Source: a virus
Strand: one strand, 5' to 3'
DNA length: 25,021 nt
IMG/VR virus record: IMGVR_UViG_3300021962_000602
Span: 1-25,021 of that record
Position 1 is the stretch's first letter; each line of letters begins with the position of its first letter. Shown piece after piece: positions 641-25,021 of this stretch. Both the position numbers and the translations under genes were made by a program. Under the pieces are notes generated by a model. That model was not told the origin of the DNA. It searched no databases and saw only the letters and a list, made by a program, of their open reading frames with translations.

Positions 641-1376
641 GTCTTTTAATTTTAATCCAATCAGGATAATTTACTGAATTTAGTTTTTGTTTTACAACAT
701 GCCTTGGAACATTTAAAATATTTGAAGCATTTTGTATTGAGTCAAATATACACCCATTTATTGAAACAGACAATTTTCTTGGGTTATTTTTTTTCATAAA
801 ATCAGAATGTTTTTGATTTTTTGTTCCTTTTCGTTTTTCTGATAATATTTCTTTTGTTTTATCACTATGCTTTCTACCAAACCATGGGTGGTTTTTACCG
901 GATTGTGCATTACTGATGTTTTTTTTATGTTCTTCACTTAATGGAATACCTTTTTTAGCCAATGACATTTTTTTTATAGTATTGTCTGAAAAAACTCTAC
1001 CAATATTTTTCTTACGCTTTATTTCAGATATTTTTTCTTTTTCATTTTCTGTTTTTTTTAATATCCAAGAACCTCCACCATCGCCACCTTCAGTTAAATT
1101 ATAACCATTATTAAACGTATTATACTTTTTAATATAATATATTTCTTTATCCATTAATGTTTTTTCATCTACAATATTATTTTCAATTATCTCCTTAGTA
1201 AAAACATCTTTCCCATATTTTTTAGCTATTTTATTTGGTATAAGACCACCTGAAAAATAATTTTTATTAGTGCCGACATGTTTTCCGATATATTGTTTAC
1301 CATTTCTACTATCTGTTAAAAGATAGATATAACCATTAGTACATTCCATAGTGATAAATAGTATGGAATCCATCAT
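630..1376 (-). CDS. Free-standing GIY-YIG homing endonuclease
   Basis: A mobile DNA endonuclease that would cut cognate sites lacking it and spread by recombination. The GIY-YIG nuclease core is at the N-terminus: GYIY at 15-18, YIG at 29-31, a KEIYYIKKY helix with the likely catalytic Glu78, and GYNLTEGG at 91-98. I see no clear catalytic Arg in the usual place just after YIG; several phage members with a Y-GG-x-K-YG pattern share this. DNA-binding repeats follow: NUMOD3-like motifs of the form G-x-x-x-S-x-x-x-K near 126-143, 143-160, 167-184 and 184-196, then an IENR1/helix-turn-helix-like segment at about 203-233. The start may be 1376 or the internal ATG at 1349, which lies just before the core. 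It sits alone between gene 46 and clpP, is very Lys/Asn-rich and more AT-rich than its neighbours, as expected for a recent mobile insert. There is no sign of an intron. Confidence 0.9.
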   Translation of the reverse strand: MMDSILFITMECTNGYIYLLTDSRNGKQYIGKHVGTNKNYFSGGLIPNKIAKKYGKDVFTKEIIENNIVDEKTLMDKEIYYIKKYNTFNNGYNLTEGGDGGGSWILKKTENEKEKISEIKRKKNIGRVFSDNTIKKMSLAKKGIPLSEEHKKNISNAQSGKNHPWFGRKHSDKTKEILSEKRKGTKNQKHSDFMKKNNPRKLSVSINGCIFDSIQNASNILNVPRHVVKQKLNSVNYPDWIKIKRHEL

Positions 1377-7138: not shown

Positions 7139-7207
7139 ACTAAACCAAAATGCAGTTATTCACCACATTTCCGCCTACTTACTTAAATATAAGTAAATTT
7201 CTTTTAG

Positions 7208-7411
7208 TTATGAAACATTAGTTGCCATATTTTTTTTCTTTACCTGACCAACTGGATAATATGATGTTTCACCAATTCTAATTGAATCGATTCTGTTTCC
7301 TGTTTTTGGATTTAATATAATCGATCTTTTACCAAAACTACTATCATAAATTACGTCTTCTAGGACGATCTTCCCATCTTTCATTCTACTAAATGTTTTT
7401 TGTTCTGTCAT
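7208..7411 (-). CDS. Hypothetical protein, 67 aa
   Basis: A short basic protein that I do not recognise. The middle (residues 20-55) looks like a small beta-rich domain, with GKRSIILNPKTGNR followed by SIRIGETSYYPVG, and the tail is KKKNMATNVS. There are no cysteines, membrane segments or known motifs. It starts 20 nt after the ruvC-like stop codon and is followed by a terminator, so it is the last gene of that two-gene unit. Its leader is a run of A residues with no Shine-Dalgarno sequence. It is probably real because of spacing, codon use in line with its neighbours and the terminator placed behind it. Confidence 0.65.
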   Translation of the reverse strand: MTEQKTFSRMKDGKIVLEDVIYDSSFGKRSIILNPKTGNRIDSIRIGETSYYPVGQVKKKNMATNVS

Positions 7412-7431
7412 ATTCTTTTTTTTAAATAAAT

Positions 7432-8034
7432 TTATTCTGTTTCTTTTATCATATTAATGTAACCAATAACTGCAGTTGCGGCATCGGCCATATCATAATT
7501 TTCTTTTTTCAATACGTTTAATTTACCATATAGCCATTTAACATCTGGGCACACTGCATTTACATGTTCCCAAATCACATGTTTCTTATCTATATCTTTT
7601 GCGTAGCCACCAAATAAAACATTTCTACCTTTATCATTAGGGCCAACTAGATCGGGGAATGCAAATTTTCTTGCGTTGTATGTTGAAATAAAAGTTGGAA
7701 CAATTCCAAAAATATCATACACTGATCTACACACCATCGTGTTGTAACGTAATAATGTACCAACAGTATAGACGTTATTTGAGTTTAATAAAGGTTCTTC
7801 AATAATAACCTTAACTATACCCATGTTCTTATAGTCCTCTAATTTTTTATGAAACGCCTCAGCTTTCTTAAGTAATTCTTCTAATTTGTCTTGGGGCTGT
7901 GGTTTAATCTTTGGAGAAAAATGCGTCAACTCTAACAAGTTTTTACCTGTCAAATCAAATAACGCAAACCCAATAGTTTTTGTGCTAATATCTAGCCCAA
8001 GGATCTTGGACTTGTTTTTAAGTTTTACTTCCAT
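7432..8034 (-). CDS. ruvC: RuvC-like Holliday junction resolvase
   Basis: A predicted RNase H-fold endonuclease that cuts four-way and branched DNA, as needed to clear recombination intermediates before packaging. The acidic active site is visible: Asp15 in ILGLDISTKTIGFAL, Glu79/Glu80 in VIIEEPL, and Asp181/Asp184 in YDMADAATAV. The length (200 aa) is close to bacterial RuvC (about 170-180 aa). It would replace the unrelated T4 endonuclease VII (gp49). The start is fixed by an in-frame TGA at 8038-8040, just two codons before the ATG at 8034, and the next Met is at residue 71. The ATG lies inside a perfect dyad (8030-8050) and where a promoter at 8041-8069 would start transcription. It could also be a RuvC-fold nuclease with another substrate. 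Confidence 0.87.
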   Translation of the reverse strand: MEVKLKNKSKILGLDISTKTIGFALFDLTGKNLLELTHFSPKIKPQPQDKLEELLKKAEAFHKKLEDYKNMGIVKVIIEEPLLNSNNVYTVGTLLRYNTMVCRSVYDIFGIVPTFISTYNARKFAFPDLVGPNDKGRNVLFGGYAKDIDKKHVIWEHVNAVCPDVKWLYGKLNVLKKENYDMADAATAVIGYINMIKETE

Positions 8035-8050
8035 ATATCAATTATATGGA
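8030..8050. promoter_or_regulatory. Perfect inverted repeat over the ruvC start codon and -10 box
   Basis: The 8-bp arms TCCATATA (8030-8037) and TATATGGA (8043-8050) flank a 5-nt spacer. The dyad contains the ruvC ATG and the whole -10 hexamer of the predicted promoter. It may be an operator for a dimeric regulator. If a longer transcript reads through from the tail genes, it may instead be an mRNA hairpin that hides the start codon. The arms are seen directly; either role is inference. Confidence 0.5.
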
Positions 8051-8069
8051 AAAATAAAATTATTGTAAA
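8041..8069 (-). promoter_or_regulatory. Sigma70-like promoter for ruvC and the 67-aa gene
   Basis: On the minus strand TTTACA (8069-8064) and a perfect TATAAT (8046-8041) are separated by 17 bases. Transcription would begin at about 8034, which is the A of the ruvC start codon. It sits at the boundary between the late-type tail genes and the replication genes, where a new promoter is expected. Caution: Bacteroidota primary promoters usually look like TTTG and TAnnTTTG, and AT-rich DNA gives chance matches. Confidence 0.45.
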
Positions 8070-8074
8070 GCCTT

Positions 8075-10195
8075 TTAGAAATCTAATCTAACAGAAAACA
8101 CTTGATTTCCAATTCTTTGGATTGGTTTCGGGGTCTTAGCCATTACTAACGGTTCTTTATTATCATTTAATAAAGCAACTTCAGTGATTCTTTTTTGTTG
8201 ACCAGTAACATATGTTGGATTTTGTGTGGTAATAAATTGTGAAGATGGTAGATTTACCATAAAATTTAAAACCTGAACATCTGTTGCTCTAGTTAACTTA
8301 ATACTACCTGGAAATGGTTGAGGGTCACCAAATTGTGGTGATGTTGTTTGTGTTTTATCAGGTAAACTTCCTAAGAATGATTCAATATTATATGGTGTTC
8401 CGGCAGTTATCATATCACCGGTTACAACAAATTGATAACCACACATATTTGTTTTATTTATTAAATTACCCACAGTGTGACCAGATATTTGAGATGTTAA
8501 ATCAATTAAGGTCCAATCGTTTGGTGAAGGTTTTTCTCCAGCTTGTGGCACTTGTACTAATGCGTAAAATTTATTAGCTGTGAAACCTGTAAATTGTGAA
8601 CTATCACTTAGAAATTTAAATTCACCAGTATTAAACTTAAAACCAATATTAGAATTTGTTGATCCAGTAATTTCACCATAGTAATTACAATGCATACCAG
8701 TAATACCTGTTGTTGAGGTATTTTGAAACATATAAGTTACCCAAGCGGTTTCACCAGATAGAATAACCGGATCTAAATCATAGAATGTCGGTAAGTCAAC
8801 TGGTACTGTGCTAAATCTTGGTGCTGGTAATGTCCACTTTCTATTTGTTTTGTATTCTAATGCCGCAACCAATTCTTGATCATCGAAAACAATTATTTTC
8901 TTATCAACGAATACTTTACCAACATTAACACCTTGTTGATCGACTAAGAATCTAAATTTAAGGTTATTAGTGTTTGGTTTATTATTTACCGCGGATGATA
9001 CATAATAATCAGTTGTACCCATAGTAAATACTGCTCCAATTGTAGACCCAGTGTTTCTGTGATATAATAAAAATGGGATATAAACTTCGAAATATTCTGC
9101 GTCAGATATTTGTTCTCCATATAATGTTTGATTATCGATTGTTCCATGAGCAATATAGTCATCATATTTAAAGAATCTTTCTGGATCATTAACAATATCA
9201 CCCAATTCAGAAAAATGAATAACAGCTATTGCTCTTTGGTTAGCTGGTTTAACATCAACTTTTTCTCCAAATGTATTTGTATATGATGTTGGATTAGATA
9301 TTGTGCCACCAGTTGTATTTGTAAATGTTTGACCTGTGTTTGATGTGTAACCAAGATATTCTTTTAATGATGCGAATTGAGATCCAGTATAACCAGAAAT
9401 ATACTCATCATCACTTAATGTGTCTAAACCAGCTGGCTCGTCAGTCCAAACTAAATCTAATTGCCATGGATCGTGTTGTGCTAAATTATCAGGTGCTACT
9501 GGTGAACAAACATCAGCAACTTCAGTTTCTTGTGGATACTCTAATTTACATTTATTACAAACCACTCTAGCTGTTCCTGTTTGTCCAGAAAAATTAGGCA
9601 TATTTCTATCCAAATAAATTTCATTTGCACTAGTACCAGTTATTTTATAAACTAAACTTTGTGTATTTCCACTTATGGTATATTCCGATCCAACAAAATC
9701 AGCTTTAAAAACTAATGTAATATATTGGCATTCTGAAAAATCTGTGGCTCCAGTAACTGATAAGATACTTCCACCACCAATTACAGATAAATCTATTTTT
9801 TTGCTTAAACATTCAATAGTTGAACCTGTGCATGGATCAGCATTATATGGTACATACTGTGAAACAAATCCAGCAGGACCCATTGGATTTTTTAACGTGT
9901 CAACATATGATTGTTGTGCTGCATTACCAAAATTAATTGTTTCATTAGCATCAATTAGGTATGGATACTTAACATGTTGATCGCCGTCAACTGGCGCAAA
10001 AATTCTTTGGTGTGGGGCTCTAGTTCCACCGGTTATTGCACCAGTGAATCCACTAAATTTACCATTATAGTCAAACTCAGAATCTCCGATCTGAAAATAT
10101 TTTATATTAAAATTACCTTCAGCAATAGATTGTCTACCTCTTCTTGTTATTCTTGCAGATAAGAACTCTGAATTATTACTATTTAAAAAACTCAT
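8075..10195 (-). CDS. Tail/baseplate-associated structural protein, 706 aa
   Basis: Probably a virion tail protein. Residues 9-43 (SEFLSARITRRGRQSIAEGN, then a KYFQIGDSEFDY segment) resemble an N-terminal attachment domain I recall from phage tail and baseplate proteins of large myoviruses. The remainder is beta-rich, with many Gly-Thr and Ser-Gly turns (TGST, SGYTGS, TGITG), few charges and a small cysteine cluster (CNKC, CSPV) near residues 213-230, typical of extracellular phage fibres. Unlike most of its upstream neighbours it has no Pro-Thr linker. It is the last gene of the tail block, 26 nt after the 434-aa gene. I do not recognise the family with confidence; the structural role comes from composition, N-terminus and position. 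Confidence 0.65.
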   Translation of the reverse strand: MSFLNSNNSEFLSARITRRGRQSIAEGNFNIKYFQIGDSEFDYNGKFSGFTGAITGGTRAPHQRIFAPVDGDQHVKYPYLIDANETINFGNAAQQSYVDTLKNPMGPAGFVSQYVPYNADPCTGSTIECLSKKIDLSVIGGGSILSVTGATDFSECQYITLVFKADFVGSEYTISGNTQSLVYKITGTSANEIYLDRNMPNFSGQTGTARVVCNKCKLEYPQETEVADVCSPVAPDNLAQHDPWQLDLVWTDEPAGLDTLSDDEYISGYTGSQFASLKEYLGYTSNTGQTFTNTTGGTISNPTSYTNTFGEKVDVKPANQRAIAVIHFSELGDIVNDPERFFKYDDYIAHGTIDNQTLYGEQISDAEYFEVYIPFLLYHRNTGSTIGAVFTMGTTDYYVSSAVNNKPNTNNLKFRFLVDQQGVNVGKVFVDKKIIVFDDQELVAALEYKTNRKWTLPAPRFSTVPVDLPTFYDLDPVILSGETAWVTYMFQNTSTTGITGMHCNYYGEITGSTNSNIGFKFNTGEFKFLSDSSQFTGFTANKFYALVQVPQAGEKPSPNDWTLIDLTSQISGHTVGNLINKTNMCGYQFVVTGDMITAGTPYNIESFLGSLPDKTQTTSPQFGDPQPFPGSIKLTRATDVQVLNFMVNLPSSQFITTQNPTYVTGQQKRITEVALLNDNKEPLVMAKTPKPIQRIGNQVFSVRLDF

Positions 10196-10221
10196 ATTTT
10201 ATGTCCATTTTTGTTTTAATA

Positions 10222-11526
10222 TTATGCTTGAGAACTACCACCACAACTTGTTAGATATTGTACACTAGTTACTTCACCAGTACTAATAATTTGTATTGAA
10301 TAGTATGGTAAATCATTTGTATTAGATTGACTATCAGTACCTAAAGCGTAAAATAATCCACCTCCGTCAAATGGTGTGTATTCTGTATCTGCATACACAA
10401 TAGTTCCATATAAGCTATTAGGTGATGTTGTTACACCATAGAATTGAGCATTGGTTGTATAGTTGTTTTCACAATGACCATTAAACGTTGATAATCCTTG
10501 TGATCTAAATAATCCATATAACACTACCGATGTTGGTGTTGGACTAGGAGTCGGTGTTGGTGTTGCGGTTGGTATAGCGCCACATTGAATAACGTTATTT
10601 ATATATCCTGTTGGTCCAATTGTCATTGTATACTTTGAACTATTTGCCAATACCGCATAATATGTTCCGTCACCAACAAATGTTGTAACACATACGTTTG
10701 TATCATATGCATAATCACCATTTGCAGGTATTGTATGTCCACTTAGATAAAGTGTTACGCTGTTTGTTGCAATATCTGATTCATACATTGCACAAGGTGC
10801 TGCGCTACCGCTAAATGTTGATCCAGTATGTACTAAAATTGAAACCCCAGGTGTTGGTGGTGGTGCAACATACGCATTTGGTGTATCAGAACAAGTTTGA
10901 TATTCTGATGATGCTTTGGTACCCTCTAATGTACCCGCAGGACTTGGCTGTGCTATTTGATAATTAATTACTTGATAATAATATCCACCAGCAGAGTAGA
11001 ATATTTCACCAACTTGTATTTGTGATTGTGTGAACGCATTTAATGTCCATCCTGTTACTGTATTAGGCGCAGAATCACAACGACTTAATTGTAAATAATA
11101 TGGTGTTTCAGTTGCTGTTGGTGTTGGTGTTGCTGTTGGCCCAGGACCAGCTGTTGCTGTCGGGGTTGGTGTTGGTACAACTGTAGTTGCTGTTGGTGTT
11201 GGCGTTGCTGTTGGACCAGGACCAGCTGTTGCTGTCGGTGCTGGTGTTGCTGTCGGTGCTGGTGTTGCTGTTGGGCCAGGGAAACCTGAAACTTGTAAGT
11301 TTTGTGTTGTTCCACTACAAGCACCTACAGGTTCTACTTTAAGCCATGTTTTACCATCGGTTATTCCGGTAACTATATAAGTTGGGTTAAATGATGACAC
11401 AGGAACATTACTGTAGTTCGATAATGCGGTGCATCCACTATTATTACCTGTACATTCGTATAGTTTAACAGATGTTATTCCTATACCTATTGTTGAACCT
11501 AAACTTACTAATGCTGTATATGCCAT
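10222..11526 (-). CDS. Modular Pro-Thr-linked tail protein, 434 aa
   Basis: A likely extracellular tail or fibre protein built from four small domains. Residues 1-80 are a beta-rich domain with three cysteines. Residues 82-141 are a Pro-Thr-Ala linker. Residues 143-215 are a cysteine-containing module also found in the 597-aa and 1372-aa proteins (pattern Y-x-L-x-x-x-C, then GE-x-FY, YYYQV and YQTC). Residues 228-316 and 333-429 are two copies of another module that ends in I-x-x-x-G-x-(I/V), a few residues and C-G; the same module ends the 192-aa protein. A second Pro-Thr linker joins those copies at 318-332. The gene lies 24 nt after the 597-aa gene and 26 nt before the 706-aa gene. TATTTATA precedes its ATG by 4 nt. 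No enzyme motif is visible. The receptor-binding or decoration role is inferred. Confidence 0.75.
   Translation of the reverse strand: MAYTALVSLGSTIGIGITSVKLYECTGNNSGCTALSNYSNVPVSSFNPTYIVTGITDGKTWLKVEPVGACSGTTQNLQVSGFPGPTATPAPTATPAPTATAGPGPTATPTPTATTVVPTPTPTATAGPGPTATPTPTATETPYYLQLSRCDSAPNTVTGWTLNAFTQSQIQVGEIFYSAGGYYYQVINYQIAQPSPAGTLEGTKASSEYQTCSDTPNAYVAPPPTPGVSILVHTGSTFSGSAAPCAMYESDIATNSVTLYLSGHTIPANGDYAYDTNVCVTTFVGDGTYYAVLANSSKYTMTIGPTGYINNVIQCGAIPTATPTPTPSPTPTSVVLYGLFRSQGLSTFNGHCENNYTTNAQFYGVTTSPNSLYGTIVYADTEYTPFDGGGLFYALGTDSQSNTNDLPYYSIQIISTGEVTSVQYLTSCGGSSQA
11104..11283 (-). repeat. Pro-Thr-Ala linker repeat in the 434-aa gene
   Basis: Low-complexity coding repeat of hexamers such as CCAACA and CCAGCA, encoding TATPAPTATPAPTATAGPGP-type units (residues 82-141). 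Two nearly identical [17 protein letters not shown] units show internal duplication. A shorter copy of this linker type is at 10531-10575. Confidence 0.85.
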
Positions 11527-11530
11527 ATTC

Positions 11531-11538
11531 TATAAATA
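11531..11538 (-). promoter_or_regulatory. TATTTATA element before the 434-aa gene
   Basis: Minus-strand TATTTATA lies 4 nt before the ATG. The same octamer precedes the 597-aa and 192-aa genes. It could be a late promoter element or simply an AT-rich leader; it is the reverse complement of the T4 late box TATAAATA, not the box itself. Confidence 0.2.
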
Positions 11539-11550
11539 TTATATTTTAAT

Positions 11551-13344
11551 TTAACTACTTCCTGCGGTGTAATATTCAACGGTTATTGTTCCAACTTTTA
11601 TATCTAACGTGTCAGCATAAGATCCGCCAAGACTACAGTTAGTATTATCCCCATATATTAACGTTACTGAAAAAGATACTGTTGATGATGTTACCGGTAG
11701 TGTAACCCATGTGCCTCCGTTAACTCGATACTGAACAGTAGCATTAGGTGTTACCTGATTATTACTTGCGTCTTTAAATGTTAACTGCATTTCAGTTGAT
11801 GTGGTCTCAGTATAGTATGAGGACTGTGGACTTTGACACTCACCTCCCGTATTTGAGAATTGTGATGGCGCGAAATCAATGTTAGCAACATTAATATTAC
11901 CTCCTCCGGTATTTCCATTACAATTACAACCCGTATCAGCTATTGTATAACCTAAATCATTATAAACCACAGAAGTAAATTGATCTGCCTGTGTTACAAG
12001 GAAGCATACTGGAGTTCCAGCAATGTTCACCGTAATTGTATTTCCACTTACCACCGTTGGTGCAGTTGCTGACCATATTGTAACGCTACCTGTGGTATCA
12101 CATCTATCACCAGTAATCATATATTTTTGAACGACACTGTTACATGCTGTGCAATTGGTGTATCCACTAAATGTAGGTGGGAATGTCGCTGGTCCAGCAT
12201 CACTAATTTGATATCCAGTGATACCTTCGGTTTCAGGATCTTCAATAACAAATTGCGGACCTAAGTTTGCATTTAATGTCATGCATATACGCGAACCTGT
12301 TGCTGTTCCTCCGCTATACATTTGTATTCCATAAACATTACCCATGGTAAATCCACCTAATAAAGAGTATGCTATTACATTTGCACCGGTATCACATGTA
12401 ACACCACTGTATCCGGTTATTGTAAATCCGGTAAATGGTGGATCACATGATGTACAAGCAGCATTACCGATACCAACAGCTGTATAATTATCTAAATTAA
12501 CTGTCCATCCTGTAACATATTGGGTTTCAACAGCAATAACAGATAAACATTGTGAACCTATTGTATACACCGTACCTTCCGTTATTCCAGTTGAACTTCT
12601 AGCAATCGTTGTTCCCACATACCCACTACCAAAACCACAAGGGTCTAATGGATTAGATACGGTATATGATGTTGTTGCTGGGTTTTGTAATGAAAGTGTT
12701 CCAATTTCTGCTAATGTAGCACAACCTGGCACCTGTATTGGTGCACTAAATCCAGTGATTGTTGATGCGGTATATGAATATCTCATATCCGTACAATCAC
12801 CCATTGCATAATAATAATATGTTGGATCAACATTAACATTAGTTGTTGACGTTGGCGTTGGCGTTGGTGTAGGTGTATTAGTTGGTGTATTAGTTGGTGT
12901 GGCAGTTGGATTAGGTGTTGGGGTAGGCCCAATAACAACCGTTGCTGTTCCACCAGAGAAATCACACGGAGGTGATGACGGTGTTGGTGTTGGTGTTGGC
13001 GGTGGTACAAATGATGCTGAACCAGCATTAGGGAAATAACAATAATTTATACAATTATCATAAACTTCTGCTTCATTTGTAAATATATTTTCAATAACAT
13101 AATTAACATCACCAGTATCACCAGTATATGTTAATTTAAACCAATATTGTGTATCAAACGATGCATCTGTAAATATAATTGGGTTATCAGTATAATTTCT
13201 AGAAGTACTAGCGGGATATAATGATCCATAAGATGTGTATCCTGTTGCTATAACAGATTCATCACCAGCAGTCTTACCTATCTTATATGATAAGGTAAAC
13301 GCTTTGGGTGAATTGATCCCATATAATCTTATATTTAATCCCAT
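11551..13344 (-). CDS. Modular Pro-Thr-linked tail protein, 597 aa
   Basis: A likely tail fibre or decoration protein. Residues 1-105 form a beta-rich N-terminal domain. Residues 114-170 are two Pro-Thr stretches around a short bead, PCDFSGGTATVVIG (126-139), which resembles the beads arrayed in the 588-aa protein. Residues 176-300, 305-401 and 407-475 are three versions of a cysteine module, each closing on a C-x(1-2)-C pair (CTSC at 297-300, CTAC at 398-401, CNC at 473-475). Related modules occur in the 434-aa protein and at the end of the 1372-aa protein. A final beta-rich domain covers 485-597. The gene follows the terminator at 13380-13405, so it needs its own promoter; TATTTATA lies 5 nt before the ATG. 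There is no SD-like site and no enzyme motif. Confidence 0.75.
   Translation of the reverse strand: MGLNIRLYGINSPKAFTLSYKIGKTAGDESVIATGYTSYGSLYPASTSRNYTDNPIIFTDASFDTQYWFKLTYTGDTGDVNYVIENIFTNEAEVYDNCINYCYFPNAGSASFVPPPTPTPTPSSPPCDFSGGTATVVIGPTPTPNPTATPTNTPTNTPTPTPTPTSTTNVNVDPTYYYYAMGDCTDMRYSYTASTITGFSAPIQVPGCATLAEIGTLSLQNPATTSYTVSNPLDPCGFGSGYVGTTIARSSTGITEGTVYTIGSQCLSVIAVETQYVTGWTVNLDNYTAVGIGNAACTSCDPPFTGFTITGYSGVTCDTGANVIAYSLLGGFTMGNVYGIQMYSGGTATGSRICMTLNANLGPQFVIEDPETEGITGYQISDAGPATFPPTFSGYTNCTACNSVVQKYMITGDRCDTTGSVTIWSATAPTVVSGNTITVNIAGTPVCFLVTQADQFTSVVYNDLGYTIADTGCNCNGNTGGGNINVANIDFAPSQFSNTGGECQSPQSSYYTETTSTEMQLTFKDASNNQVTPNATVQYRVNGGTWVTLPVTSSTVSFSVTLIYGDNTNCSLGGSYADTLDIKVGTITVEYYTAGSS
12829..13005 (-). 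repeat. Pro-Thr linker repeat in the 597-aa gene
   Basis: Encodes residues 114-172: [13 protein letters not shown], a short CDF-type bead, then PTPTPNPTATPTNTPTNTP and further TP units. GGTGTT-type hexamers dominate the plus strand. It joins the N-terminal domain to the cysteine modules. Confidence 0.85.
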
Positions 13345-14050: not shown

Positions 14051-17000
14051 TTAAAGTATCTGTCCTGGACCTCCTCCAGTACAATCATTACATGTATTAT
14101 ATATCCCTGAATATTGCCCATCAATCAAGTGTAGTGTTTCAGTAGAACACACGGTGTCTGCTAAATAATTTATTTGGTAACATATATTATCTATTTTAAC
14201 AGATTTTCCTAAGAATTGACTTGGTAATAAATCAGGAGATGTCATAAGAAGAAGACCAGAATTACCACAGTTTAGCACTTCATACCTATAGAATGTTACT
14301 GGTGGTGAAATGGCTGTTACTCCACTATTTGTTACACAACCATTAGCATCTGTAACTTCTAGGCAATAACCATATGATGTTAAGTCGCTAACATTAAATG
14401 TTGTACCATACGTGGAAGTGCTATATGTTCCAACCAAATCTCCTCCACATGTATTATATGGTGAACTTGTATCAACATATAATCTATATGTTTTAGGAAA
14501 TACTCCACCAGATGATGACAATTCTAAAACTCCAGAACTTGGAGATGAACATGTTGGGTTAGTAATAATTATTAATGACGCCGTTTGTGCGGTTGGTTGA
14601 CTTATTCCTTGACCATATCCCGCAACACAACCATTTGCATCTTTAACATACAGTGTATATGTATCTGACACTAAACTACTAAATGTTTTTGGTGGATAAT
14701 AATAATTGTAACCATCAATTGATACTTGTCTAGGTGACGAACCACCATTTAATGTTGCAACAGCAATAGAACCATCTGATCCACCATTACATGAAACATT
14801 GGTAACTGTTACTGATCCGAGTTCTGGTGTTGATACTGTTAAATTGTATGAGACTATTGCAAAGCAACTATTATTATCAATTATTTGTATAGAGTGATTG
14901 CCACTAGCTAAATTACTAAATGTGTGTGATGCTTTAAATGTTGTTAATGATGAGTATGGTGCGCCATTACTACTAATATCATATTTGTACCCCGATGCAT
15001 TTGGTGTACCGCCACCACCCTGAATTGTTAACGATCCGTTTGTTGAGTTATAACAAGTTGGGAATGACGCTGAAGTAATAGAACCAGATACTGCCGATGG
15101 TATAGTTACGGTTGCTGAATATGTTTGAACACAACCTGAACCATCTTTAATGTAAATTGTGTATGTTCCACCACCTAATGATGAATAACTTACTGGTAAG
15201 TTTGCATATGTACCACCTGAACCAAGTTTAGCTTGATATCCTGAACCTGAACCACCATAACCACCAGAAACATTGATTGTTCCTGTTCCTGCGTTACAAT
15301 CGGGGTTGCTTACTGATATTGTTGCATTTGGTTCGGATCTAGATAATAATACATAATCATATGTTATACAACCATTACTATCTTTGACATATATTGTATA
15401 AAATCCGGTACCCAAACTACTAAAAGTCCCGCTAGATTGATAGTTTGTTCCATCTTTTGAATATGTATAACCACCCGTTCCACCAGAACCTGAAGCCGAT
15501 GCTGATCCATCACTACCATTCCAACATGTTGGATTTGTACCAGATACTGATATAGATACCGCGCTTGGTTGTGTTACTGTTTGATTGTATGTTTGAACAC
15601 AACCCGAACTATCTTTAATATATATTGTATATGTACCAGAAGATAAACTAGAATACGTTACTGGTAAATTTGCGTATGTTCCTCCTGAGCCATTTTTTGC
15701 TTGGTAACCAGTTCCTGACCCACCAGTACCACTACTCACCGCTATTGAGCCATTTGATCCACCATTACATGAAACATTACTAATACTATATGACGCTGCT
15801 GGTACACTTCTATTAATGTTTCTTGCAATTGTTGCAATACACCCATTAGCATCTTTTACGTAGCCAGTGTAGTTTCCATTTGGTAAATTATTAAAAGTAC
15901 CACTTGATTGATAGTTAACACCATCAATTGAATATGTGTATGGTGATGTTCCTCCGCTACCGAAGAACGCTACTTGCCCATCACTATCGTTAAAACAAGT
16001 TGGTGCGATATTTGTATCAGAATTAGCACTAACTGGAGTCGCTGGTTGAGTTATAGTTACACCAAAACTATTAACACAATCAGAACTATCTTTAACATAT
16101 ATTGTATATGCACCAGAAGATAAACTAGAATACGTTACTGGTAAATTTGCGTATGTTCCTCCAGAACCAATTTTTGATTGATAACCGGACCCCGAACCAC
16201 CACTACCATTACTTACTGTAATTGAACCTGTTGTTCCATTGTAACATGCCACATTTGATTGTGATATCGTTGCACTTACTTGTGTTCTATTTAAACCAGT
16301 TGTATTTGTTCTAACACACCCATTAGCATCTTTAACGTATGTTGTATATGTGCCATTTGCTAAACCAGTAAATGTTAAACCAGCTTGATATGTTGAACCA
16401 TCAATTGAATATGTGTATGGTGCGACACCTCCACTAACACTAGATAATGTTATTGAGCCATTTGAATCACCATTACATGTTGGCGGTGTCCCACTTGCAG
16501 TAAAAGTTATTAATGATGGTTGTGTTATTGTAAGTGATGTTAATTGACCAACTTCATTATTTGAATCTTTAACATATAATTCATATGTTTGAGCTGTTAA
16601 ACCTGTGAATATATTACTTGATTGATAGGTAGACCCGTTTTTTGAATATGTATAACTACCTGAACCACCACTTGGACTGGTTATTGTTATTGTACCATTA
16701 GATCCTCCATTACATGAAACATTTGTTGAAGATCTAGATGCTGTTATAACAACATCTGTTATGTAAATATACATTGAAACATCAACATATAACCCTAAAG
16801 CATCTGTTGATCTAACTCTTATAAGATATGTATTTTTTGTTTCGTAATCAAATACAAATTTAGATTTTAAAGTATTGCCCACAATAGTAAAACTACCATT
16901 ATCTGGATAAGAACTATTATCGGTAAAAACATATGTAAATGTATCTCCAGCATCAGGATCATATGTTGAAAAAGTACCAATAGTTGTTCCCGTTGCAACA

Positions 17001-18169
17001 TTTTCAGATATTGAAGACGATGATAAATCAATACCTGTTGGTGCTTCGTTTGCATTAGTTACTTGTACCATTACAATAGCATCATATGTCAAACCTCCAG
17101 AATCTGTTGTTCTTACGTTTAATTGATATGTGCTTTTTGTTTCAAGATCAAAAACTTCTTTTGACGTTAATACACCACCAGAGCTTAAATCAAAACTATT
17201 ATTATCTGGATATGAACCAGTATTAATTAATGAATATGTAAATGTATCGCCAGCATCAACATCCAAAGTAGATAATGTTCCAGCTGTTGTTCCAATGGCG
17301 CTGTTCTCAGGTATTGAACCAGAAATTTGAATTCCATATGGTGCTTCGTTTACATTATCAATATAAATTGTAAATTGTTTATCATAATATTGCCCAACAC
17401 TATCAGTGGTGCGAATTGCTACTGTATATGAAGTCGTTGCCTCATAGTTGAATGATATTGAACTATATAACCCATTAGTACTAATAGTAAAAGGGGCCGA
17501 ATTTACTATAGAATATATATGTGTATCACTACTATCACCTGATGTTGTTGATAAATAACCAACTAATGTTCCAATTGAAGAATTTTCATTTATTCTATTG
17601 TGACTTAACGATATATCTGTTGGCGCATAATTAACTGTTGTATCAATTAAAAATAAACAATTAGGTGTCGCTGTTGGACTTGGCGTTGGTGTTGGTGTTG
17701 ACGTTGGTGTTGGCGTCGGTGTCGAACTTTCAGTTGGTGTTGGTGTCGGCGTTGGTGTAGCTGTAATAATATTAGTATCCACACCAAATTCGCAGTTTGG
17801 TGTTGGAGACGGTGTTGGCGTTGGACTAGGACTTGGTGTTGGGCTAGGCGTTGGTGTTGCTGTTGGACTTGGGGTTGGTGTTGGTGAGGATGTTGGAGTG
17901 GGTGTTGGTAAAATAGTCTCATCAATATTTGATTGACACTCCGCAATAACCCTGGCATTAGTATTGTATACAATTATTTTAGTGGCCTCATCTGGAACAC
18001 TAATATGTAAACCTAAGTTTACTGTTAATTCTGTAAGTGTAACCCCTGTGGCAAGAAATGATGTATCAAAATTAGTTGCAAGATTTGCCGAATTAACTTG
18101 GTCATAATAAACATTATATGGACCTAAGTCACTACCAGAAACAATCTTTACGTAAAACTTCTTTGCCAT
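14051..18169 (-). CDS. Giant tail adhesin with cadherin-like and SprB repeats, 1372 aa
   Basis: A long extracellular fibre. Residues 1-80 form an N-terminal domain shared with the 192-aa protein. Residues 87-170 are Pro-Thr linkers around a bead ([13 protein letters not shown], 125-137) and end with a second, NCLFLIDTT. Three cadherin-like domains follow at about 181-273, 276-374 and 377-473, with [15 protein letters not shown] and FDLETK-type calcium-site patterns. About ten SprB-type repeats cover 476-1289, each with [10 protein letters not shown] near the start and YVKDANGCV near the end. A final cysteine module (1290-1364) ends in CNDC, as in the 597-aa protein. SprB repeats are known from the Flavobacterium gliding adhesin. 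A phage fibre using them may bind or mimic the host surface, which is inference. No signal peptide or T9SS-type C-terminal domain is seen, so this is not a misplaced host gene. It lies 6 nt after the 92-aa gene. Confidence 0.88.
15635..15685 (-). repeat. Direct repeat copy 1 (51 bp, in SprB repeat 5)
   Basis: Identical over 51 bases to 16112-16162. The offset is 477 bp, exactly 159 codons, so the duplication is in frame. It encodes part of the [14 protein letters not shown] segment. Confidence 0.9.
16112..16162 (-). repeat. Direct repeat copy 2 (51 bp, in SprB repeat 3)
   Basis: Identical over 51 bases to 15635-15685. This points to recent duplication or gene conversion between alternate SprB repeats. 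Confidence 0.9.
17660..17911 (-). repeat. Pro-Thr linker with CDF-type bead in the 1372-aa gene
   Basis: Encodes residues 87-170. The bead-coding bases 17760-17797 match 19411-19448 in the 588-aa gene at 35 of 38 positions, so the same segment exists in two neighbouring genes. Confidence 0.85.
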
Positions 18170-18455: not shown

Positions 18456-20222
18456 TTATGATATTACCCCAGTACATGGGTTTATAGTTAAGAAATTATT
18501 ATTTGGACAGCCACTATAAATTGTTTCTGTATTAAGCTTCATTGTAATCCAAGTTACATTTGTGTGACAACCACCCAGACCCCAACCATAATCCACATTT
18601 AACGGTGTGGCACATACTAATGAAAAGTTTATATTACCACCTGTGGACGATGCTGCAATATCTTGAGCTTGTTGCGTTGTTAAGGTTAATGAATTATATC
18701 TAGCAGGACCACTTGTTACACCAGCCGGATAGTTGAATTGATCGTTAGAACCGCCAGTATTACTTAAATAAACCGTTCCGATTGTAATGTTATTACCTCT
18801 TAAGTAAAATGTTGCAGCATTACAACCATGGCCACCAGGACACGGGCCTACTGTTGGGCTATATTGAACAATAAATTCCATATTAGCCAAACAGTTAACC
18901 ACTTCAGTTAACTCTGGTGTTACAGTTGTATCCAAAGCACAATCAATAGTTGCTGTTGGTGTTGGACTTGGCGTTGGTGTAGGACTAGTTGTTGGTGTTG
19001 GACTAGGCGTTGGAGTTGGCGTGGCCGTAATGATATTCGTATCAACCCCAAAATCACAATTTTCTGTTGGTGTTGGTGTTGGTGTTGGTGTTTCAGTTGG
19101 ACTAGGACTCGGTGTAGGACTAGGACTTGGTGTTGGGCTAGGACTAGGTGAAGGACTTGGTGTTGGAGTCGGTGTGGCTGTAATAATATTAGTATCAACT
19201 CCGAAATCACAATTTTCTGTTGGAGTTGGAGTAGGTGTTGGGGTTTCTGTTGGACTTGGACTTGGTGTTGGAGTAGGCGTTGGAGTTGGGGTTGCTGTTA
19301 CCACATTAATATCCATCCCAAAATCACAATTTTCTGTTGGGGTTGGAGTAGGTGTAGGTGTTTCCGTTGGACTTGGGCTTGGTGTTGGGCTTGGTGTCGG
19401 TGTCGGGGTAGCTGTAATAATATTGGTATCCACACCAAATTCACAATTTTCTGTTGGTGTCGGTGTTGGTGTTGGGCTTGTTGTTGGAGTTGGTGTAGCT
19501 GTAATAACATTAACACCCATCCCAAAATCACAGTTTGGTGTAGGACTTGGCGTTGGTGTAGGACTCGTTGTTGGAGTTGGGGTTGCTGTAATAATATTAA
19601 TACCCACCCCAAAATCACAGTTTGGTGTTGGACTAGGTGTTGGAGTTGGCGTGGCAGTAATAATATTAACCCCCATTCCAAAATCACAGTTTGGTGTAGG
19701 ACTAGGTGTTGGAGTCGGTGTTGCTGTAATAATATTAACACCTAAATCAAACTCACAGTTTTCTGTTGGCGTTGGGGTTGGGGTTGGTGTTGCGGTAACA
19801 ACATTTGAGGTTACCTCAAAAGCACAATCTGAAGTTGGTGTAGGAGTAGGTGTTGGTGTAGCTGTAACTATATTAACACCCACACCAAAATTACAATTAG
19901 GTGTTGGACTAGGAGTAGGGCTAGGAGTTGGTGTGGGACTAGTTGTTGGTGTCGGTGTTGGTGTGGCGGTTGGTGTTGGAGGTAACGGACAACTACCTAA
20001 ATTAAGGTTTATTGATGTTACACTACTTGTTCCATTAATTGTCCAACCAGTATCTGGTAGATCTGTTGTTGTATAATTTCTAGGTTCCCCACCATATGGC
20101 CAAGGGTTTATTGTCCAATAATCACTACCATTCCATCTTACATTACATGTAACGCCACTAAGGCTACCTTGCCATGAAGGTTTTCCGTTATAATGTCCGT
20201 TATATGTAAAAGTAGTTAACAT
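18456..20222 (-). CDS. Tail protein with a long array of CDF-type beads on Pro-Thr strings, 588 aa
   Basis: A probable extended fibre or stalk. Residues 1-78 are an aromatic-rich N-terminal domain ([19 protein letters not shown]). Residues 81-427 are an array in which a 13-residue bead like [13 protein letters not shown] occurs ten times, with an eleventh degenerate copy (DCALDTTVT). The beads are separated by Pro-Thr-Ser linkers. Bead cysteines fall at 110, 133, 156, 179, 202, 231, 260, 299, 337, 389 and 428. Residues 440-588 form a C-terminal beta-rich domain with several cysteines ([23 protein letters not shown]). Each bead has a single cysteine, which could cross-link chains of an oligomeric fibre; this is inference. 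It lies 13 nt after the 1594-aa gene and 1 nt before the 92-aa gene. No known family is recognised for the bead. Confidence 0.8.
18942..19982 (-). repeat. Tandem bead/Pro-Thr array (coding)
   Basis: Ten clear 39-bp bead units plus one degenerate unit, separated by Pro-Thr-Ser linkers. The first five beads are spaced exactly 23 codons (69 bp) apart. Later spacings are 29, 29, 39, 38, 52 and 39 codons, all by in-frame changes of linker length. The plus strand reads as GGTGTT-like hexamers, so slippage or recombination would usually preserve the frame. Confidence 0.92.
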
Positions 20223-20235
20223 TTTTTATTATATT

Positions 20236-23200
20236 TTAACACGCGTATGAGTCTGTAACATTACCATTATTATCTATTTTTAATTCTGTTCCGGAACTTG
20301 ATGGGTCGTTGCTACCATAATATTTATTTTGTCCATAATATGGTACTGACATACTGGCTTCAGAATAGAATCTAGTTACTGCGGTCCAATCTGAGTTGTT
20401 ACCATATGCTGTATATGGATATGGACCAGACAATTCTGTGCAACCTTCTGTCGATGGATTGGTTTGTCCAGTACTAATATTATAAATTGTAACAGGACAT
20501 GAAATTGCGTTAAATGTATATGAAGTTAATGGGGTGAATTCAGTTACTATACCATTAACAACCTTAATTATGTTAGATACATTTCGGTCTATATTTCCTG
20601 GAAAATCTGTTTGTACCGCCGTAAAATTACATGAGCTACAGAAATTGTATGTAATATTTCCACTATATATTTCTGTTCCAACACCTAATGTTTGAGATGA
20701 TGGATATGCATATTGTGACCCACCATAACTTGAATTAGGACTTATCAGTACATGATTTATATAATCTGCAACTTCTTGTGGTGTGTTATTCAACCAATAG
20801 ATATTATTTTCACATATCCTTCCATTAGTGTAGAACCAGGTTGTATTAAATGATTGGGTTGCTGTTGGTGTTGGTGTTGGAGCAATAGCTGTTGCTGTTG
20901 GTGTTGGGGCGATAGCTGTTGCCGTTGGTGTTGGTGTTGGTGTTGACGTTGAACCGCAAGTGCCACAATCATCTTCCTCATCACAAGAAATATCTGAACA
21001 ATAGACTACTGTAATTCCTGGAACAGGTCCTTCAACCGAACCTGTTACTACACATTCTGTTACTACATTAATTCCATTTGTTAGATTAACGTTTGGAACA
21101 AGTTGAGAGATTGGGCTTCCACCGCAAGGAGTAAGTGTTATATACAAATCGTCGTTTGTTGTATTTGTTAATCTAATACACATACAAGTAGGGGTACTAG
21201 TTGGTGTTGGGGCAATAGCTGTTGCCGTTGGTGTAGGTGTTGACGCAATCGTTGTTGATGTCGGGGTTGGTGTTGCAGTTGGTACAATAGCAGTTGCTGT
21301 CGGTGTTGCTGTTGCACCTGTGAATACAATATCAACACAGAAGTCATCAGCAGGTGTTGCTGTTGGTGTCGGTGTTGGTGTGCTAGTTGGTGTTGCTGTT
21401 GGCGGAATCGGCGTTGCGGTTGGTGTCGGAGTTGGCGTCGCAGTTGAACTAGGTGTTGGTGTTGGTGTAGATGTTGGTGTTTGTGTTGGTGTTTGTGTTG
21501 GTGTTGGTTGTGGTGTTATTATTGGGTATGATCCAACGCATGTATATGCTGGAGAACCAGTAATTACGTTTGAATAATTTCTTTCTAGTGATGCGATTGA
21601 TGGTACTGTTGTACAATACTCATTAGTATAATATTGTTGCATTGATGAACTAACTATTTCAAATCCAATGTATTCATGTTCAAGTAATGCTAAGTAATTT
21701 GAATTACCATTAAATGTAATTAAATTTGTTGGTAAACTACCTGTAACATTTATGTTATAATACATATTAATATTACAGTAATTTAAGTCAACAGCAATTA
21801 CTTCAATTAGTTCACCTTTCTCTGTTATAATATAATCACCAGTATCATAATAATCTGATGGATAATTACAACATGGCTCTATTGGTGTTTCGGGTTTTAT
21901 TTGTAAGAATTCTGGTGATCTAGTATCAAATACATAGCCACTTCTTTTTGTTATATTACCATCAGTTTCATCAACCTCTTTGTTTGTATAAACTCTAAAT
22001 TTACTTGTTGGTAGTACTTCAAAAACAACTGTTGTTCCGCTAACTGTCCTTCCACTAATAACACTAGTTTTAACTGAACCTAAAGAATCAATTCTAGATA
22101 CTGTATATGTTGTGTATGAATATGAGAAGGAATAATTATTACTTAATTCTGCGGCTTCAAATGCACCACTTGATAATGTTGAACATGGAAGATATGTTGC
22201 AGAAACAATTGTATTTCCAGACACAATATCTTTAACGTCTTTTTTAACTAAAGTTCCTGCAGTAATATAACTTTGAATATTAGCTGGAGTTGTTGAGCTA
22301 TTGATTGTTGCACCACTTAGTACTAAAACTTTTGTATCATGCTTTAATCCATAGTTGTATGAATTTCTATATTGAACTCTAGGATGTATAGTAAAACCAG
22401 TATTAACAACTATTGGTTGATCTGGGGTTTCTGTTGGGAATTCAACATATTGTAAATTTAATCCATCAATTCTCACTTTTTTATCACAATTGGCTGCGTC
22501 AGTGAATAATAAATCTATTATTTCATCTTCGTACACATTTGATATTTTAAACTGACATGTATTTCCACTAACCTGTGCAAATGTTGTGTCAGTATATGTT
22601 GAACTATATCCACCATACGCATTTATAATTGGAATTGAATTTCTTTGTACGTAAATTCCCCAACCATACGTTTCACCAGATTGAACAGTTGCACCAGTAA
22701 TATTAACAATAATATCTGATTTTAATTTACATTCTGTTGATCCTGTATAAACTGGGTATAAAACACCGTCAGGGCAAACAGTTGTAAATTCTAAATCTAA
22801 ACTACACTTAGGTAGTGAGTATTGATAATCGGCGTCAAAATAAAAATCTAAATATCTTTTTTCTAAACAGCCTGAATTACTATGTGCAATAAACTTAACT
22901 TTTTCAACACCATCATTATCTGTGAAAAATTCATAAGATACTAATTGTGTATAACCAGAGCAATTAGCACCACAACCGTAAGTTACACCACTATATGGTG
23001 ATTCGGTTGGTAAATGGCCAGCAACTGGATCATTGTATGTTGAATTTATTTTATCAACTAAAGCAATTACCGCGTTTTTCCAAAGTGTTTTTGTTGTTGA
23101 AACATTTAATTTAACCCAATTTTTATAATCACAAATTAATGGGATACTAGTTGATGAACTTGTTAATACACTGCAGCTGTTTGTTGCGGTATATCCAGTA

Positions 23201-25021
23201 TCAAATAACGTGCTACCAGTTATTTTAACTTGTGATGTTGTTCCACTATATTCAATACCGTCAATATCCATCTTTAATGTGAACGTCACACCAGTAAGGT
23301 ACATTAAACCTCTAAGGTGGTCCGGTTCACCAACAATTGTTTCTAAGTCCTCTTCAATAAAGGTTTCAAAATCTGGATATAAATTCTCAACTATTTCAAT
23401 TGGTTTACAAGGTTTTCTATATGAAAACTTTGGTCTAGCAAAAATATTGTTTTCTATTAAATTACCGCCCATCCATAATGTTGTTGATGGTATAATTTGT
23501 TCTAAAACATTTGACCAATATGGACTCATTTGATTAACAAAATCTGTTGAATCAACCATGTCATATGGTGTGTACCCAGAAGATGTCAATTGATTAATAT
23601 AATCTTGATACACATCTTCTAGATGAATATAATTTTTCTTATATTTTACTAAGTTTGAGATAACTACCTGTTTTGAGAAAGTATTTTCAAGATATTCAGC
23701 AAAGCTTACGTCACTTTGTACTTCTAAACTATTCTTTCCAAATACCACTTCTAATTCTCTAGACTTTCTCCATATATCATAATTGCTCGCGTTAGCTGGG
23801 CTAACAAACACACTGATATTTTTTCTGTTTAGAATTAAACCGGTACTTGTTAAATCATCAACAACTTGGCTTTTGACATTATCTATTTTACTTTCTAATG
23901 TGTAACCATAATCTAATCCTGGGAATGTTCTATATATGTCAAAAAATTCTTCACCATAAGAATATGGTTTTGATTTTGTTTTAATTGTTTTTGTTCTACC
24001 TGTTAATATGAAATCACCGTCAACAAATGTACCACTAGAGTTATCTGTATCTATAATGTCCGAAGATCTATGATCTAAACTAACATTATGCCATCCAGAC
24101 CCCATTTGGAAAAATATATTATCCTGATTTGTTGTTGGGGTTTTTGGTAAAAATGTGTCAGTATCGATTGGATAATCAGTAGTATTACTGAATGTTGTCA
24201 TTCCGGTTATTGCACGTAAGCTATATGTGTATGTTGTTGAATTAAACGTTACATTATTATTTACCGCAACATTATTAATGACATTAAAAATATCATCTTC
24301 TGTCGAGGTTTTAGAAATTGCAGTTTTTACATTATAAACATACTCATTGATTTTAATCATCGGATCTGGAGCACCAATGAATTTTAAGAAAAACTCAATA
24401 CTACTTCTTGTTCCTTTTGACTTATATATAAATGCTAGATTAACTAATAGTCTTCTGTAAAATTCTAACTCACCATCTACCAAGTTTTTACCGATAGATG
24501 ATCCATTGTAAACTGATTTAGAAGAATTATATATTTGTTCTTCTAATGTTTTTTGATCAAATAAATTAATAGTATTTAAACCTAATGTATTAGCAAGATT
24601 TTTAAGAAAAACATCCGGGATATTGCTTATTGAGTCATATGACACATTTCTCATGTATGCAATGTTATCAATAAACGATTTTACTTTATCAAAGCTTTGG
24701 CCATAAAGTTGAAATATTTTATCAATCTTTTGGTCTTCGGTGTCAAATTCAAATAATTGTGGTGCAACTAAAAACCTGGTAACTAAATTTGATTTATATT
24801 CATCAATTTCTGTTGCTAAGTCGTTTAACTTAGTTATATATTCATCAAATTTTAAACCGGTGGTTTGTGGGTTCCATCCATCTTTCGAAACAGGCCATTC
24901 TACTAAAACATAAATTAAATCTGTTTTTGTTTCGTCTAAACTAGTTCTAGGAACTTTAAACGACGCTTGAAATATAGGAAATGTTTCTCTATTTAATAAT
25001 GTTTGTTCTAAGTCGTCCAAA
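20236..25021 (-). CDS. Giant baseplate-type protein fused to Pro-Thr-linked tip domains (5' end outside window)
   Basis: The frame is open to the right edge. The first in-window codon (TTG at 25020) is probably not the true start, so the gene is 5'-partial with at least 1594 codons. Residues 1-230 include a helical stretch, RRLLVNLAFIYKSKGTRSSI followed by EFFLKFIGAP (about 190-220), which resembles P2 gpI/baseplate tail-protein regions. The middle (about 230-1165) is beta-rich with many Thr-Gly turns. Pro-Thr linkers lie at 1169-1224, 1237-1278 and 1358-1388. Between the first two is a bead-like DDFCVDIVFTGA, and between the last two is a cysteine-rich domain (CMC at 1279-1281, CDEEDDCGTC near 1346-1355). 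C-terminal tip domains cover 1389-1594 and end with LKIDNNGNVTDSYAC, like the tip module of neighbouring proteins. The role in baseplate attachment plus surface display is inferred. Confidence 0.75.
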   Translation of the reverse strand, partial: LDDLEQTLLNRETFPIFQASFKVPRTSLDETKTDLIYVLVEWPVSKDGWNPQTTGLKFDEYITKLNDLATEIDEYKSNLVTRFLVAPQLFEFDTEDQKIDKIFQLYGQSFDKVKSFIDNIAYMRNVSYDSISNIPDVFLKNLANTLGLNTINLFDQKTLEEQIYNSSKSVYNGSSIGKNLVDGELEFYRRLLVNLAFIYKSKGTRSSIEFFLKFIGAPDPMIKINEYVYNVKTAISKTSTEDDIFNVINNVAVNNNVTFNSTTYTYSLRAITGMTTFSNTTDYPIDTDTFLPKTPTTNQDNIFFQMGSGWHNVSLDHRSSDIIDTDNSSGTFVDGDFILTGRTKTIKTKSKPYSYGEEFFDIYRTFPGLDYGYTLESKIDNVKSQVVDDLTSTGLILNRKNISVFVSPANASNYDIWRKSRELEVVFGKNSLEVQSDVSFAEYLENTFSKQVVISNLVKYKKNYIHLEDVYQDYINQLTSSGYTPYDMVDSTDFVNQMSPYWSNVLEQIIPSTTLWMGGNLIENNIFARPKFSYRKPCKPIEIVENLYPDFETFIEEDLETIVGEPDHLRGLMYLTGVTFTLKMDIDGIEYSGTTSQVKITGSTLFDTGYTATNSCSVLTSSSTSIPLICDYKNWVKLNVSTTKTLWKNAVIALVDKINSTYNDPVAGHLPTESPYSGVTYGCGANCSGYTQLVSYEFFTDNDGVEKVKFIAHSNSGCLEKRYLDFYFDADYQYSLPKCSLDLEFTTVCPDGVLYPVYTGSTECKLKSDIIVNITGATVQSGETYGWGIYVQRNSIPIINAYGGYSSTYTDTTFAQVSGNTCQFKISNVYEDEIIDLLFTDAANCDKKVRIDGLNLQYVEFPTETPDQPIVVNTGFTIHPRVQYRNSYNYGLKHDTKVLVLSGATINSSTTPANIQSYITAGTLVKKDVKDIVSGNTIVSATYLPCSTLSSGAFEAAELSNNYSFSYSYTTYTVSRIDSLGSVKTSVISGRTVSGTTVVFEVLPTSKFRVYTNKEVDETDGNITKRSGYVFDTRSPEFLQIKPETPIEPCCNYPSDYYDTGDYIITEKGELIEVIAVDLNYCNINMYYNINVTGSLPTNLITFNGNSNYLALLEHEYIGFEIVSSSMQQYYTNEYCTTVPSIASLERNYSNVITGSPAYTCVGSYPIITPQPTPTQTPTQTPTSTPTPTPSSTATPTPTPTATPIPPTATPTSTPTPTPTATPADDFCVDIVFTGATATPTATAIVPTATPTPTSTTIASTPTPTATAIAPTPTSTPTCMCIRLTNTTNDDLYITLTPCGGSPISQLVPNVNLTNGINVVTECVVTGSVEGPVPGITVVYCSDISCDEEDDCGTCGSTSTPTPTPTATAIAPTPTATAIAPTPTPTATQSFNTTWFYTNGRICENNIYWLNNTPQEVADYINHVLISPNSSYGGSQYAYPSSQTLGVGTEIYSGNITYNFCSSCNFTAVQTDFPGNIDRNVSNIIKVVNGIVTEFTPLTSYTFNAISCPVTIYNISTGQTNPSTEGCTELSGPYPYTAYGNNSDWTAVTRFYSEASMSVPYYGQNKYYGSNDPSSSGTELKIDNNGNVTDSYAC
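20857..21516 (-). repeat. Three Pro-Thr linkers in the giant baseplate gene
   Basis: Residues 1169-1224 ([20 protein letters not shown] at the start), 1237-1278 (TATAIVPTATP and TATAIAPTPT units) and 1358-1388 (TPTPTATAIAPTPTATAIAP). The TATAIAPTPT unit occurs in both of the last two linkers, which shows copying within the gene. Confidence 0.85.

Follow-up and report, generated by a model that had tools for sequence, protein, structure and literature searches.

SprB repeats form much of the surface adhesins of Bacteroidota. Modules of this kind are also already present in databases as parts of phage proteins, so that their occurrence in phages is not new. A tblastn search with the repeat array described below detected Cellulophaga phages phi19:1, Nekkels_1 and Nekkels_2, Polaribacter phages P12002S and P12002L, and the uncultured record LR756502.1. 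The phi19:1 protein with SprB-like units, gp98, is annotated as structural from MS/MS data. This protein, P12002S gp28 and Nekkels_1 gp50 match phrog_26672 (virion structural protein) nearly end to end. Each of the three has one strong SprB-like unit (with a weaker extra unit in phi19:1 and Nekkels_1), and none of them matches Pfam SprB at an E-value of 0.01. Two UniProt entries named "SprB repeat [uncultured Caudovirales phage]", A0A6J5LD72 and A0A6J5LDA4, were the first and eighteenth viral fold matches, and are likened to the protein studied here only by their names and match scores. LR756502.1, a 642-kb uncultured phage record, encodes at positions 7162-12174 (locus L020) a protein of 1670 amino acids with 13 SprB stretches and a CHU_C T9SS sorting domain (E 5.1e-14). 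Its gene adjoins SpoVR and glutamate-synthase-like genes; either this phage encodes an adhesin that can be secreted, or the record is a bacterial contig under a wrong label.

Among the matches listed for open-access PMC articles, no title or abstract treats SprB repeats in phages, and several of those for "SprB" concern the SP-beta prophage of Bacillus. In the one article found to contain both the SprB repeat and the word phage, the latter occurs once, in the reference list. The word "SprB" occurs zero times in the main texts of a study of bS21-encoding freshwater Bacteroidetes phages (PMC9723584) and of an eCIS fibre catalogue (PMC12923769); the former main text also has "tail fiber" zero times.

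We analysed a 25,021-base IMG/VR fragment (hereafter, the window) that encodes a fibre-like protein, whose domain order, as read from the sequence, is given in Table 1. Loci in other contigs are designated by L numbers, and the 251-kb contig is called G002. Like the SprB gliding adhesin and other T9SS-secreted SprB proteins, the window protein carries the PF13573 module in a tandem array. Unlike them, it has no detected sorting domain or signal peptide, and it combines the N-terminus of a phage family with a PT-rich stalk, a C-terminal tip and two alternating unit types. It shares SprB-like units with the phrog_26672 proteins, which belong to phages of Flavobacteriia, but the remainder of those proteins is unmatched in the window fibre. 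No full-length match to phrog_26672 was obtained (the best of six stretches covers profile positions 218-277 of 679), and the phi19:1 structural protein has the SprB-like units only in common with it.

Table 1. Features of the fibre gene, in window coordinates
Feature	Position	Strand	Evidence or remark
Fibre gene, 1372 aa	14051..18169	-	Homologous proteins on phage contigs of 251 kb and 169 kb (79% and 77% identity in the best segments)
Conserved N-terminal ~85 aa, presumed virion anchor	17915..18169	-	Identity to relatives
PT/PS-rich stalk pieces, residues ~86-172	17654..17914	-	Sequence
Cadherin-like region, residues ~173-476	16742..17653	-	Pfam PF00028, E 6.1e-21
SprB unit 1, type B	16499..16735	-	
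SprB unit 2, type B	16268..16498	-	Pfam 48.3 bits
SprB unit 3, type A	16019..16267	-	
SprB unit 4, type B	15791..16018	-	
SprB unit 5, type A	15548..15790	-	
SprB unit 6, type B	15320..15547	-	
SprB unit 7, type A	15077..15319	-	
SprB unit 8, type B, divergent	14813..15076	-	
SprB unit 9, type undecided in window	14573..14812	-	Type A in L054, L046 and L051
SprB unit 10, terminal type	14306..14572	-	Terminal type also in L054, L056, L048 and two-unit L013; SH-aLRT 98
C-terminal tip, type T1, residues 1289-1372 (84 residues)	14054..14305	-	Unrelated tips replace T1 in near-identical fibres

The protein is probably a long modular adsorption fibre of a T4-like Bacteroidota jumbo phage, with a shaft of cadherin and SprB domains and the 84-residue tip as receptor binder. 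On this model, the conserved N-terminus would join the virion, the PT-rich stretches would act as a flexible stalk, the cadherin and SprB domains would form a chain of Ig-like beads that makes up the shaft, and the C-terminal 84 residues would be the receptor-binding tip. Shaft length, changing mainly by pairs of the two unit types (A and B), would set the reach of the fibre, and recombination beside the last SprB unit would swap tips. The sequence strongly supports the modules themselves; we infer what each module does, the place in the virion, the fibre function, the distal position of the C-terminal end and binding by the tip.

Pfam SprB scores 134.7 bits on the fibre, compared with a cut-off of 28 (E 7.8e-40), and seven stretches are individually significant. 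Cadherin, located N-terminal to the array, is the sole other Pfam family above its cut-off; Antistasin (20.1 bits vs 21.2, residues 769-777) and Cadherin_4 (18.8 bits vs 25.1) fall below theirs. In a six-frame SprB search, the window yields eight matches, two of which singly exceed the Pfam cut-off, and 0 of 14 control genomes yield any. Ten significant units, at about residues 479-1289, are recovered with a profile built from 157 bacterial SprB repeats, which has no match in 200 composition shuffles or in five neighbouring window proteins. These 157 repeats were first located by a window-seeded profile, and the independent test is that with Pfam. Units in the window array are 76 to 88 amino acids long, compared with 37 positions in the Pfam model.

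The initial annotation, made by inspection of the sequence, had proposed about ten SprB repeats in residues 476-1289, or window positions 14303-16744. Both the repeats and the agreement of the coordinates are borne out. A comparison with other Ig-like families, set beforehand, gave no equally good match in the same residues of the window fibre. In the 14-unit relative L048, BiPBP_C (36.3 bits) and Y_Y_Y (29.7 bits) pass their cut-offs inside the array, where SprB scores 237.8. The "YTYS" core described for the repeats is confined to one of the two types present, and GYQ(S/A)K is found instead in units 3, 5 and 7.

Those two types are evident from identities within the array. Units 3, 5 and 7 (type A) are mutually 63-75% identical and units 2, 4 and 6 (type B) 50-55%, whereas neighbouring A and B units are 30-41% identical. 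According to window-type profiles, the unit order is BBABABAB?B or BBABABABAB in arrays of ten and BB(AB)6 in arrays of 14, which can be generalized as BB(AB)n. We also measured alternation without profiles, by comparing similarity at even and odd distances with that in 300 shuffles of unit order. Of 14 distinct phage arrays, 13 alternate with p <= 0.010; for every one of 15 distinct bacterial arrays p is 0.15 or higher (0 of 15 with p < 0.1). The tested phage arrays are kin by descent, and so represent one shared property, not 13 events. The phage exception, L056, has a 98-amino-acid gap in its array. Most of the classified fibres have an even number of units; L055 and L060 have five.

Relatives were sought in viral contigs both with a whole-protein pattern, which reaches close relatives only, and with an alignment of the repeats. 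The former scan found eight distinct loci, of which one is 100% identical and three are 77-82% identical to the window protein; L013, L014 and L015 have two SprB units each, and a fragment has four. The repeat-alignment scan found 41 loci. In the ORFs that were read, the family layout runs from about 80 N-terminal amino acids through a PT/PS stalk and a cadherin region to the SprB units, and ends in a short C-terminal tip. Where both ends are complete, the fibres contain 10 or 14 SprB units; in L056, eight were recognised. The cadherin region was confirmed with Pfam in L048, L054 and L135, the three loci scanned for this confirmation. L135 has six SprB units with cadherin, and L132 has four units and no Pfam cadherin match. 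Two SprB units are also frequent in another type of phage protein, unrelated to the fibres, which is some 530 amino acids long and starts with MGLLSGNSCNIITILPLG or similar (L058 and others). L058 exceeds the Pfam SprB cut-off with 34.0 bits, and the L060 protein, with its five units, is not matched by Pfam SprB.

At the N-terminus, the window fibre is 84-89% identical to three close relatives over about 85 residues, and 38-46% identical to the five more distant fibres compared. The C-terminus is exchangeable. Grouping the tips of 15 loci with blastp at an E-value of 1e-3 gave five groups: T1 with eight loci (including L011, the window's own), T2 with three, T3 with two, and two singletons. 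L046 and L051 are 99% identical in the first 85 residues and 77% in the SprB array, and their tips are unrelated; likewise, L048 and L050 are 99% identical in the first 85 residues and 86% in the array, with unrelated tips. A scan for T1 tips found 14 loci, several of them in contigs already met. Thirteen of these (L126-L138) all have SprB units (2, 4, 6 or 10), and L016 has four. Thus, T1 is tied to an SprB shaft at every locus found, and the last SprB unit accompanies it even in two-unit L013. A conserved N-terminus combined with an exchangeable C-terminus is a trait of adsorption fibres, and its presence in this family supports the earlier view of a phage fibre-like protein.

Divergence frequently grows towards the tip, with exceptions. 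Between the window and L009, identities of units 1 to 10 are 100, 100, 96, 82, 88, 95, 94, 76, 61 and 77%, and that of the tip is 51%. Exceptions include L048 and L050, whose units are 77-94% identical through the last unit; L012, in which identity to the window falls to 50% at units 3-4; and L054, in which the tip (60%) is closer to that of the window than the array is (56%). The tip was modelled by AlphaFold2 with a pLDDT of 85 and a pTM of 0.72. Foldseek found nothing among solved structures at E <= 0.001, and the best VIA match has Z 3.6 and an rmsd of 2.7 over 52 residues, from which no new fold is implied.

An alternative that we consider unlikely is that the SprB array itself is adhesive, giving weak multivalent binding to the host capsule or to polysaccharide-coated surfaces where the host lives. 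SprB repeats are abundant in Bacteroidota surface adhesins, and repeat-rich long ORFs were seen. By analogy, Ig-like domains let gut phages stick to epithelium, and Ig-like phage proteins have been linked to epithelial adhesion (PMC13370021). However, the A/B register looks structural, and in comparisons with three close relatives identity is higher in the array (76-86%) than in the tip (50-61%), although this is not the case relative to L054. Binding by the repeats, which the initial annotation had favoured, is less likely than binding by the tip, because the tip is the part that near-identical fibres exchange.

A shaft of Ig-like beads is in keeping with predicted structure. AlphaFold2 models residues 794-1372 as all-beta beads with a mean pLDDT of 84 and a pTM of 0.38, and because of this pTM the packing of domains in the shaft is not fixed by the model. 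Among solved folds, the model best matches the grappling hook protein GhpA of Aureispira, with a Foldseek E-value of 9.2e-15. In VIA comparisons, GhpA entry 9flp has Z 12.2 with an rmsd of 19.1 over 429 residues, and six more GhpA entries (9flv, 9flw and four others) have Z 9.1-10.3, with 17-19% identity for GhpA entries. Because unrelated proteins reach Z 9.1, only the 9flp match is clearly above the crowd. GhpA is a chain of Ig-like domains, as the modelled fibre is, but it is a bacterial protein, and the high rmsd reflects that beads match whereas the whole chain does not superpose. These models thus support a predicted Ig-like bead chain. At the sequence level, the array has no match to solved structures at E <= 1, and the repeat alignment has three weak matches up to E 10, the best with E 0.044.

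Gene neighbourhood was examined in the window and in G002. In G002, a baseplate-wedge gene ends about 16 kb upstream of the fibre gene on the same strand. Of the genes scanned upstream, none nearer to the fibre gene has a tail label, and the five scanned genes between the two have no functional label. In the window, 0 of nine proteins scanned received a PHROG "tail" label. PT-rich linkers of the fibre type are also found in neighbouring proteins at 18456-20222, 11551-13344 and 10222-11526 (all minus strand). The first of these, of 588 amino acids, consists mostly of tandem NC(D/E)FG-type units, and a similar unit occurs in the fibre stalk. A ClpP-like head maturation protease fragment (2-1376, minus strand) adjoins a homing endonuclease with NUMOD3, whose GIY-YIG match is slightly under the Pfam cut-off. 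Overall, our confidence in the fibre reading is slightly lowered by the missing tail labels, the restriction of the phi19:1 match to the SprB-like units, the L056 exception, the common descent of the phage arrays, the odd unit counts, the comparisons in which another part varies more than the tip, and the pTM of 0.38.

The host of the window phage is very likely a member of the Bacteroidota, as was first suggested from the repeats, because translation signals in the phage sequences include few Shine-Dalgarno (SD) sites and because G002 has a reverse-strand bS21 gene. G002 has 32% GC, 22 tRNA genes and one tmRNA. SD-like motifs precede 10 of its 231 genes (4%), compared with 7.3 expected by shuffling, and were found for 1/15 genes in the window, 0/11 in L012, 0/13 in L014 and 0/7 in L009. 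A stretch of Flavobacterium phage immuto has 1/47 (2%), whereas stretches of T4 and a Microcystis phage have 23/39 (59%) and 15/37 (41%), respectively. Upstream base profiles agree: a G peak is absent in G002 and immuto, and clear in T4 and the Microcystis phage. SD sequences are naturally absent from Bacteroidetes mRNAs (PMC6847099). Among small stretches of cultured flavophages, P12002S (1/12) and Nekkels_1 (1/8) are low, but Cellulophaga phage phi19:1, at 3/8, counts against a host call based on SD sites, since its host is a flavobacterium.

The G002 bS21 gene (76844-76996, reverse strand) is close to terminase and portal genes. This placement is as described for bS21-encoding freshwater phages, to which we liken G002 by description, and whose predicted hosts are Flavobacteriia and other Bacteroidetes (PMC9723584). 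Three of the 10 phage records searched have bS21; these records are classed as linear and may be fragments. SprB was found in 27 of 118 Bacteroidota genomes sampled and in 0 of 14 control genomes; a gliding host, to which the initial annotation had also pointed, is only a possibility. One protein with at least eight SprB units occurs in L034, a MAG named Proteobacteria, which has a Bacteroidota-like layout and may be mis-binned.

Other host signals are weaker. Among the best of 2420 matching records, terminase identity is 29% to Flavobacterium phage immuto and 28% to Microcystis phage Mel-JY01, both of which are weak matches. With tblastn, no match was found for a candidate capsid-module gene or for the window proteins at 8075-10195 and 20236-25020. 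The promoter TTTG-N17-22-TAnnTTTG occurs 4 times (0.8 +- 0.8 expected), a weak signal, without enrichment of its half-site TAnnTTTG (27 vs 25.0). Bacteroidota signal peptides tend to end in Q; in G002, 13 of 234 ORFs fit a crude pattern of this kind, 11 of which were judged real by eye, in an uncontrolled count. Within 150 nt upstream of the 234 G002 ORFs, TATTTATA, which corresponds to the T4 late promoter core read on the opposite strand, occurs 43 times (6.3 +- 2.3 in shuffles), and the core itself, TATAAATA, occurs 15 times (vs 7.8). The tmRNA gene of G002 (39720-40116) has an unusual predicted tag peptide.

The initial annotation had further suggested that the phage took adhesin modules from its host. 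Recent acquisition of the array from an SprB or SprB-like adhesin of the current host is a question of origin that is compatible with any function, and the comparisons make it very improbable. In its favour, type-B units 2 and 4 have 56% and 61% local identity to one bacterial repeat. However, for each of the ten window units the best score with six distant phage fibres exceeds every score with 275 bacterial repeats (a small bacterial sample), the terminal unit is orthologous across distant fibres, and the A/B register occurs in none of the bacterial arrays. All 153 units of the fibre family prefer another phage locus, a result that is partly trivial in that close relatives are included, as do 44 of 48 units in other phage SprB proteins; among the 275 bacterial repeats, 242 score best with a different bacterial locus, and 33 do not. 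Best matches between window and L054 units are at the same position in 7 of 10 cases.

A single-repeat tree with 138 rows and 75 columns, in which 83 of the 135 inner branches are open, was used solely for unit orthology. It groups the last unit across the window, L054, L056, L048 and L013, and groups units 1 and 2 across the window, L054 and L056 (SH-aLRT 86 and 80), apart from the same positions of L048. Such a tree of phage and host repeats had been proposed initially; it has too few columns to separate a phage from a bacterial origin. Because its units score higher against distant phage fibres and its last unit is orthologous, the array appears to be old in phages, and these sequence comparisons do not support a recent capture from a host.

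Two further functions have little probability. The array might contact a putative host SprB, so that the phage is carried along the gliding track to an injection site. Gliding proteins are indeed important when Cellulophaga phages and their relatives adsorb, and a possible receptor role has been named for SprB (PMC13288928), but the occurrence of SprB in only 27 of the 118 sampled Bacteroidota genomes argues against such a ride. It is equally doubtful that the protein acts outside the virion, exposed on the surface of infected cells in the manner of a host adhesin. The LR756502.1 protein does carry a CHU_C sorting domain, and this positive example, found with the same Pfam library, indicates that the library is able to detect one. 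In the window protein, however, Pfam and NCBIfam scans found no T9SS sorting domain, in agreement with the absence of a T9SS signal noted originally; by eye, its N-terminus has no visible hydrophobic core or signal peptide; and it has its PT-rich linkers in common with neighbouring proteins. Finally, that the repeats are a chance or low-complexity artefact is ruled out by the Pfam E-value and by 0 matches in 200 shuffles.

We therefore return to the adsorption fibre with an SprB shaft and an exchangeable tip. What appears to be new here, judged from the sequences, is the alternation of two types of SprB unit in the fibre family, the orthology of the terminal unit and the exchange of tips. A more tentative proposal is that phages made the A-B SprB pair into one element of shaft length, such that reach may change mainly in two-domain steps, and specificity may change through tip swaps beside a fixed last unit.

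For uncultured jumbo phages of Bacteroidota, the family provides concrete, testable candidates for adsorption fibres, whose shaft module also occurs in host adhesins. Tip replacements mark where host specificity may sit, and the number of SprB units and their A/B order are easily read from sequence. Because it is found in Bacteroidota and in 0 of the 14 controls, the SprB module could also serve as a clue to host phylum for uncultured phages. If the proposal regarding A-B pairs is true, such a shaft would represent a principle of fibre construction that, to our knowledge, is distinct from the known beta-helix, beta-spiral and coiled-coil shafts.
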